Shown here: positions 35,472-36,308 of the stretch, piece after piece
Layout of the letters: each line of letters begins with the position of its first letter
How positions within the stretch are numbered: the stretch's first letter is position 1
IMG/VR virus record: IMGVR_UViG_3300027156_000015
Span: 1 to 43,563 of that record
Reading direction: 5' to 3' (one strand)
DNA length: 43,563 bases
Source of the DNA: a virus
Notes under the pieces: generated by a model
Seen by the model: only the letters and a program-made list of their open reading frames with translations
Database searches by the model: none
What the model was told of the DNA's origin: nothing
Program-made: the position numbers and the translations under genes

Positions 35472-35871
35472 ACTAAAAGAAAAGACGCTGTTTGATTGGT
35501 TTAAGGATACCAGATTCAGCGACATTCAGCAGACAAGTAAGTACAGCTATACTGATGCATATATCCCATCTTTAAATGTGTATGTTGAATTTAAGTGTAG
35601 GAGAGAGCATTACGATGCTTTACTTATAGAGAAGCCTAAATGGAAGCACTTGCATAAGCTACCTAATTGTAGGTACATTAACTCTACCCCTAGGGGGATA
35701 TACTCATTCAATATGTCAGTAATGGCACAACCAAGTTGGCATATGAGGGTAATGCCTAGGACAACCAATTTTGAGAATAAAGATAAGATAATCAAAGAGG
35801 TTGGCTATCTGCATATTAGACAAGCTGTTGAACTGACAGATTCTTTTTTAGAATATAATTTGGATAATTAA
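35458..35871 (+). CDS. PD-(D/E)XK-like nuclease (137 aa)
   Basis: YTDAYIPSLNVYVEFKCRRE (31-50) gives the core D33...E44-x-K46 of the PD-(D/E)XK fold, followed by KPKWKHL (59-65). A compact single-domain enzyme like those phages use for resolution or DNA breakdown. The end of the protein overlaps the -33 box of the ncRNA promoter. Confidence 0.65.
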   Translation: MNLSELKEKTLFDWFKDTRFSDIQQTSKYSYTDAYIPSLNVYVEFKCRREHYDALLIEKPKWKHLHKLPNCRYINSTPRGIYSFNMSVMAQPSWHMRVMPRTTNFENKDKIIKEVGYLHIRQAVELTDSFLEYNLDN

Positions 35872-35889
35872 AAAAGATTTATATCTTTG
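35859..35889 (+). promoter_or_regulatory. promoter of the structured RNA
   Basis: TTTG (35859-35862), 19 nt, TATCTTTG (35882-35889), a full Bacteroidetes promoter match. Transcription should begin near 35895, with a terminator only about 100 nt later and no gene between. Confidence 0.75.
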
Positions 35890-35894
35890 TGTAG

Positions 35895-35993
35895 CAAATC
35901 CGATAAGGTAGTGAAGTTACGTTATCGGGTATGTTTCAAGAACTAACCCTTCTTTAGATATGCCCATTAGAACTTCACTCTAGTGGGCTTTTT
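35895..35993 (+). ncRNA. predicted about 99-nt RNA with two complementary hairpin loops
   Basis: Hairpin 1 has stem CCGATAA (35900-35906)/TTATCGG (35922-35928) continued by GTA/TAC, with loop GTGAAGT (35911-35917). Hairpin 2 is the terminator with loop ACTTCAC (35972-35978). The loops are exact reverse complements (7/7), and the match extends to nine bases into the stems. Bounded by a strong promoter and terminator. It could fold as an intramolecular kissing loop or pair between molecules. No coding frame of note. The 5' end is an estimate. Confidence 0.65.
35962..35993 (+). terminator. rho-independent terminator of the structured RNA
   Basis: Stem GCCCATTAGA/TCTAGTGGGC (10 bp, one G-U), loop ACTTCAC, then TTTTTA. 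Confidence 0.9.
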
Positions 35994-36169
35994 ATTGGGT
36001 GTAGTCAAAGCAATACGGCTACTGCAACTGAAAGTTAGTTACAGACTAATGGAGGTAAATGCATAAAGACCATTCTAAGGGAATCTGATATTCAACTTTT
36101 AAATGTATAGTATTCTTCACGACTTGCGTAACTATACAGCCTCAATTAACGATAGCTCATTAACTCAGT

Positions 36170-36224
36170 GGTAAGTAGTCAGTCTCCTAACAGGGGGTAG
36201 GGGGCTGACTTCGTTTTACTTACC
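36170..36224 (+). ncRNA. long imperfect hairpin, candidate structured RNA
   Basis: GGTAAGT/ACTTACC (36170-36176, 36218-36224) is stacked on AGTCAG/CTGACT (36177-36182, 36205-36210). TCTCC then pairs with one of two G5 runs (36193-36197 or 36200-36204). The two G-runs offer alternative pairings, as in a switch. No T-tract. Could be a regulatory leader or part of a larger RNA. Confidence 0.4.
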
Positions 36225-36276
36225 TAATTACTTCTAGTCTTTTAATCTAGTGGTAAATAAAAAACATTAAAAAATA

Positions 36277-36308
36277 TTTGGATAATAATAAAGTATTTTG
36301 TAATTTTA
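36277..36308 (+). promoter_or_regulatory. probable promoter of the recombination genes
   Basis: TTTG (36277-36280), 20 nt, TAATTTTA (36301-36308, one mismatch to TAnnTTTG). 21 nt before the ERF ATG. Confidence 0.5.

Follow-up and report, generated by a model that had tools for sequence, protein, structure and literature searches.

The window analysed here, a 43.6-kb virus record carrying genes for a portal protein, a terminase, ERF, a RecE-like exonuclease and a primase, contains a short leader RNA in which the apical loop of a 5' hairpin is complementary to the loop of an intrinsic terminator. Some two dozen further virus contigs from metagenomes carry the same promoter/two-hairpin/terminator RNA. 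Based on sequence comparison, we propose that this leader is, on balance, probably a cis-acting transcription attenuator of about 100-130 nt that forms the 5' end of a non-coding RNA unit in phages. Its four segments would adopt two alternative pairings: 1:2 (hairpin P1) together with 3:4 (the terminator), which would stop transcription, and 2:3, which would oppose the terminator and would consist of a loop 1-loop 2 helix of 7-9 bp (alpha) nested with a helix between the P1 base and the terminator 5' arm (beta). Conservation or covariation is seen in each of the four helices, and the promoter, the U tract and the spacing to the element that follows are constant.

Architecture and distribution of the leader

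An earlier, sequence-only reading of the window had described a full promoter, a gene-free stretch of about 99 nt and a strong terminator. The sequence and the listed open reading frames bear this out, as no listed gene lies inside the 99-nt RNA (Table 1). Transcription of the leader is expected to start around 35894-35897. The window leader folds with z = -4.2, and none of 200 shuffled sequences was as stable. In the aligned copies, stems are nearly invariant and loops differ: 96.7% of cells are paired in P1, with covariation from G-C to A-U, and 97.1% in the terminator hairpin, with three covarying pairs. The distance from the start to the U tract is about 95-135 nt in 23/23 leaders, each with a promoter and then an intrinsic terminator upstream of the putatively regulated sequence, and the linker between the hairpins differs in sequence and length from phage to phage.

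Table 1. Coordinates of the leader and of neighbouring features (positions in the window unless another locus is named).
Feature	Position	Strand	Remarks
-33 promoter box, TTTGG	35859-35863	+	Bacteroidota type; aligned in 23 leaders
-7 promoter box, TATCTTTG	35882-35889	+	19-nt spacer to -33 box here and in most leaders
Hairpin P1 (segments 1:2)	35898-35930	+	Strands 35898-35910 and 35918-35930; 12 pairs
Loop 1, GTGAAGT	35911-35917	+	7 nt; alpha strand 35910-35918, AGTGAAGTT
Beta 5' strand, GGGTATGTTT	35927-35936	+	Overlaps P1 base
Linker hairpin, AAGAA-CTAACCC-TTCTT	35938-35954	+	From folding of the window leader
Beta 3' strand, AGATATGCCC	35956-35965	+	Overlaps terminator 5' arm
Terminator hairpin (segments 3:4)	35962-35988	+	10 pairs
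Loop 2, ACTTCAC	35972-35978	+	7 nt; alpha strand 35971-35979, AACTTCACT
U tract of intrinsic terminator, T5	35989-35993	+	T5 or more in 23/23 aligned leaders
Class B downstream element	35999-36260	+	Approximate bounds; no ORF of at least 40 aa on + strand; no promoter-like site
Class B hairpins	36104-36111/36131-36138 and about 36170-36224	+	
ERF promoter-like site, TTTGGA, 20-nt spacer, TAATTTTA	36277-36308	+	Score 13.1, versus 21.5 for the leader promoter
Conserved element right behind leader, L078	454-774		
Conserved element right behind leader, L057	9868-10191		
Conserved element right behind leader, L153	2765-3086		

Related contigs were gathered using the ERF protein and the primase as queries, and a DNA search of these records showed the leader to be an isolated conserved non-coding island. 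Scanning IMG/VR with a P1-stem pattern returned 31 stretches, 24 of which are genuine leaders, duplicates included. The homologues are metagenomic contigs throughout and several are closely related, so that locus counts overstate independence and the 20 distinct loop pairs described below are the better measure. Judging from the promoter type, the host of the leader-bearing phages is probably a member of the Bacteroidota.

Reference phages gave no nucleotide match to the window region or to three other units. Under the stricter filters applied to covariance-model searches of more than 40 genomes (here ~790 Bacteroidota genomes), with which weak members could be lost, a phylum-wide sample of 395 genomes yielded nothing at E 1e-4, and 396 genomes of one order yielded three matches of 37.7-39.5 bits. 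We rejected these three as ordinary terminators without a leader; true leaders score 65-101 bits. A further 65 pattern matches in bacterial genome contigs contained no leader, as no downstream terminator with a matched loop was present. Rfam searches of the window and of 10 homologous loci, leader and downstream element included, gave no match at or above a family's gathering score; the candidates rejected as below threshold were RsaOG (20.8 bits, E 0.89, gathering score 50), ncr1575 (29 bits where 60 are needed, E 0.03) and the trpB motif (E 1.5). In the open-access literature we found no description of an RNA built in this way from such phages.

The loops of P1 and the terminator covary

In the window, the two loops are exact reverse complements and their complementarity extends to 9 nt, as the sequence-only reading had stated. 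It had also proposed looking in related phages for compensatory changes in both loops, and such changes are present in the leader family. The final set comprised 27 leaders with 20 distinct loop pairs, of which 19 form 6-9 uninterrupted Watson-Crick pairs without an internal G.U, and most leaders have exactly matching 7-nt loops. The mean complementary run was 7.95 when each loop was compared with its own partner and 4.1 when partners were swapped, and the observed sum was reached in 0/20,000 permutations. In the first set, of 14 distinct loop pairs, the summed complementary run was 116, compared to a maximum of 99 in 20,000 permutations. The loop pairs covary even on an imperfect alignment. 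We also scanned 2.99 Mb blindly, on both strands, for any terminator loop complementary over at least 7 nt to the apex of an upstream hairpin; of 50 matches, 49 were the leader RNA (some copies counted twice) and one was background. From the permutations and the blind scan we rejected chance complementarity of the loops, and the compensatory changes in 19 of the 20 loop pairs support the view that the loop-loop pairing is under selection.

A scan that used only the downstream sequence identified eleven loci new to the analysis (L153, L154, L155, L157, L158, L159, L172, L179, L181, L189 and L210), and a leader with complementary loops was present at 11/11. Four of these (L153, L155, L157 and L158) carry a type II leader, with different stems and with the loops TTGGAAG/CTTCCAA, TTGGACA/TGTCCAA (two copies) and GTAGAGA/TCTCTAC. 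The leaders of L181 and L210 are near-identical to each other and have different matched loops (GTAGAG/CTCTAC and GTACGAT/ATCGTAC, respectively).

The sole leader without full loop complementarity is that of L085 (3770-3868; two G.U pairs and one A.C mismatch), and it counts against attenuation as the function of the pairing. Its loop 1 is that of the window and its loop 2, AATTCCGCT, resembles loop 2 of L058, which suggests that this leader is a natural intermediate or a recombinant. As isolated duplexes, the loop pairs have energies of about -10 to -14 kcal/mol, compared to -3.8 for L085.

A further covarying helix joins the hairpins

The earlier description of the two hairpins as the only ones in this RNA did not hold, as a further, covarying helix, beta, pairs strands of the linker (Table 1). 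Across the family, beta consists of GGGUNNN after P1 paired with NNNRCCC running into the terminator 5' arm; it is 7-10 bp long in 21/23 type I leaders and 4 bp long in L172 and L181. Its pairing was matched in 0/20,000 permutations, 98.1% of cells are paired over 7 columns, and its covariation score is 0.54, compared to at most 0.10 when the strands are slid. The GGG and CCC common to P1, beta and the terminator are invariant and never vary, and exclusivity of the alternative folds therefore rests on geometry, not on covariation.

As beta lies between the two loops, alpha and beta are nested and would form one long rod, and this predicted rod is incompatible with full P1 and terminator hairpins. 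With beta present, the loop pairing may also lie nested within an antiterminator rod, and a kissing pseudoknot is not its sole explanation. The inner pairs of beta, which in the window are 35930-35936/35956-35962, could also coexist with P1 and the terminator as a three-way junction. Both beta and alpha provide a conserved alternative pairing that overlaps the terminator 5' arm, a feature by which attenuators are recognized.

In fold energies that exclude any kissing contribution, the two-hairpin form of the full window leader has -34.6, versus -29.2 with beta, and P1 plus terminator is the best fold in 22/23 full-length type I leaders. When the leaders are cut before the terminator 3' arm, beta is in the minimum-energy fold in 23/23 type I leaders (window: -25.7 kcal/mol with beta versus -19.0 with the P1 base forced). 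Type II leaders have the same alpha/beta nesting and are close to balanced (bistable), with the rod as the minimum-energy fold. Since the full-length type I leader favors P1 plus terminator, antitermination would need to be kinetic or induced.

The leader precedes a conserved non-coding element

Wherever a copy extends far enough, a different stretch of conserved non-coding sequence, 250-330 nt long, begins within about 10-25 nt of the U tract. This element belongs to at least three classes, A, B (that of the window) and C, none with an Rfam match. Class A contains several covarying helices, one crossing another, that column-shuffled controls almost never gave; its invariant core is AAAGTGGTAGCNATGTCTTA...GACAACTGCCGACAAG, and the crossing helix occurs as CAGGTT/AACCTG, CGGGTT/AACCCG and CTGGTT/AACCAG. 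Class B has one covarying hairpin, in which TGTATAGT/ACTATACA changes to TGAATGGT/ACCATTCA, and its helix count is not clearly above controls. The downstream element may represent a new class of large RNAs in phages. A group I intron was rejected for class A: a helix order like that of P3-P7-P8 is present, but no counterpart of P4-P6 is, and there is no Rfam support. ARAGORN called no tRNA or tmRNA in the element.

Scoring of promoters across the copies revealed none of comparable score between the U tract and the element, so the element appears reachable by read-through only. The leaders' own promoters score 15-23; promoter-like sites inside the element score 11.2 in L154 and 9.2 in L074, and better-scoring sites lie mostly immediately upstream of the next gene.

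Several other features of these regions were observed. A G-rich hairpin in class B (window 36158-36250, with equivalents in L061, L066 and L058) has direct repeats on either side, and these differ from phage to phage in a concerted way (window, CTCAGTGGTA/CTAGTGGTA; L061, CTCATTAGTATG/CTATTAGTATG; L066, CTCATCGGTAT/CTATCGGTAT). The class C element of L041 and L002 contains G runs (GGGGGAGGGTAGGGAGGGGG) that possibly form a G-quadruplex. About 0.6-0.85 kb 3' of the leader, L067 and L086 carry a tRNA-like sequence, ATAGTCAGGAAG...GGTTCGAATCCTACACTGACTACG, which ARAGORN did not call in L086.

Proposed attenuation and alternative readings of the leader

We favor an attenuator for the downstream RNA because of the layout of 1:2 plus 3:4 versus 2:3 before a U tract and because of the precedent of the guanidine-IV riboswitch (see below). 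P1 would fold first. As the terminator 5' arm and its loop emerge from the polymerase, loop 1 would capture loop 2 in a kissing contact, which might either persist as a kissing complex or seed strand exchange into the alpha plus beta rod; the terminator would be delayed, and the polymerase could read into the structured RNA just downstream. We infer that a transcript is made, that its termination is regulated and that the effect has this direction. If a signal sets the switch, it would most likely bind the 5' strand AAATCCGATAAGGTA, which is almost invariant.

Alpha is strictly Watson-Crick, which suggests that it starts out, at least, as a true loop-loop contact; this strictness would fit a lasting kissing interaction no less well than it fits a nested helix. 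Accepting a permanent contact, the leader might be a stand-alone small RNA, closed and pseudoknotted by intramolecular kissing of P1 with the terminator hairpin, in which kissing stabilizes the RNA or presents the P1 stem and the downstream element would be a distinct RNA acting as its partner. We consider this unlikely, yet the strongest of the alternatives: every copy has its own strong promoter and terminator, the best fold of the full leader is P1 plus terminator, and alpha is strictly Watson-Crick in 19/20 variants, with exact 7-nt loop matches in most leaders. On the other hand, the covariation of beta would be unneeded unless a three-way junction forms, the element is always directly downstream and lacks a promoter, and the loops hold no conserved target sequence.

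Such a junction of P1, beta and the terminator is also the basis of a more doubtful proposal, in which it prevents intramolecular kissing and loop 1 pairs with loop 2 of the next molecule to form a dimer or ring, in the manner of phi29 pRNA or of the ROOL/GOLLD assemblies. Each molecule does carry two mutually complementary loops, the three-helix junction is possible, and phage and bacterial RNAs are known whose quaternary kissing loops are conserved by covariation (PMC12286853). However, the linkers of roughly 30-65 nt permit intramolecular pairing, which is expected to win at cellular concentrations, there is no Rfam match to phi29 pRNA, ROOL or GOLLD, and the unit shows no consistent association with packaging genes.

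It is very improbable that the unit acts as DNA (an operator pair, or recombination or mobile-element hairpins, with inverted repeats that are incidentally transcribed): the unit is hairpin-rich and its genomic place differs among phages, but the promoter and the U tract share one direction, no transposase or recombinase is among the annotated neighbors, and the G.U pairs in P1, beta and the terminator read correctly on the + strand only, which identifies the promoter's strand as the functional one.

The unit is not tied to a particular gene

The sequence-only reading had suggested a switch in which loop pairing weakens the terminator and lets transcription reach the ERF and RecE genes. A switch that opposes the terminator, through a pairing that appears to be under selection, is retained here as the best reading; the proposed target is not. 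In the window, the unit lies upstream of ERF, which follows about 340 nt downstream, but ERF has its own promoter-like site, which argues against dependence on read-through. Elsewhere the unit adjoins unrelated genes: it lies behind the major head protein gene in L087, upstream of a tail fibre gene in L057 and L181, near PAPS reductase and ferredoxin in L153 and between primase and terminase in L074. In L003/L035 it is about 0.8-2.5 kb upstream of ERF. Because these neighbors differ across phages, the unit belongs to no particular gene, and control of ERF/RecE expression by loop pairing is the least probable of the readings that we weighed.

More speculatively, and with considerable doubt, the two loops may constitute a hypervariable address, a private pair for each phage lineage within a self-contained, horizontally spread RNA module. 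If so, each switch would answer the RNA of its own phage, in cis or in trans, while ignoring RNA from related phages in the same cell, a specificity resembling that of plasmid incompatibility RNAs; the module itself would deliver a new class of large structured RNA.

Comparison with known systems

Few examples are known of an upstream hairpin loop that contacts a terminator loop. The one that our literature search turned up is the guanidine-IV (mepA/GGAM-1) riboswitch, in which the loop of a 5' hairpin pairs with the terminator loop and influences read-through (PMC11611296, PMC7736828, PMC10907184). The leader likewise has a 5' hairpin loop complementary to its terminator loop. In contrast to the riboswitch, its loops vary in 20 ways and lack the conserved binding-site nucleotides, and this variation argues against a conserved ligand pocket in the loops. 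The complementarity in the leader is also contiguous over 6-9 bp, an extra helix, beta, joins the hairpins, there is no Rfam match, and what follows is a non-coding element and unrelated phage genes rather than guanidine transporter or carboxylase genes.

Attenuators of the trp type have four segments with alternative 1:2 plus 3:4 and 2:3 pairings before a U tract. The leader shares this 1-2-3-4 layout, but no leader peptide was seen, its 2:3 pairing takes in both apical loops and its apparent product is RNA.

RsaOG (RsaI) of Staphylococcus aureus is an sRNA of about 150 nt with a terminator and a predicted pseudoknot (PMC5826253), to which the leader is not homologous by the Rfam score test. 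Covarying kissing loops also occur in ROOL, GOLLD and OLE, non-coding RNAs from phages or bacteria, of which GOLLD and ROOL are phage-associated (PMC12286853). These RNAs are several hundred nt long and form cages or dimers, whereas the leader is about 100 nt long and has no Rfam match.

The packaging RNA (pRNA) of phi29 is likewise small, comes from a phage and has two loops complementary to each other; the leader differs from it in its longer complementarity, its intrinsic terminator end and its position, which is generally not beside packaging genes. The RNAI/RNAII pair of ColE1 has fully complementary 7-nt loops whose identity varies between relatives, but that pair consists of a sense and an antisense RNA, whereas the leader carries both loops in one RNA. 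Within the leader family, the contact covaries freely through 20 sequences and the stems hardly change, a pattern in which the rule would be pairing, not sequence. The family points to a structured phage RNA, without an Rfam match and apparently reached by read-through only, that occurs in very different genome places and, if confirmed, would be a gene-independent RNA module carrying its own regulator.
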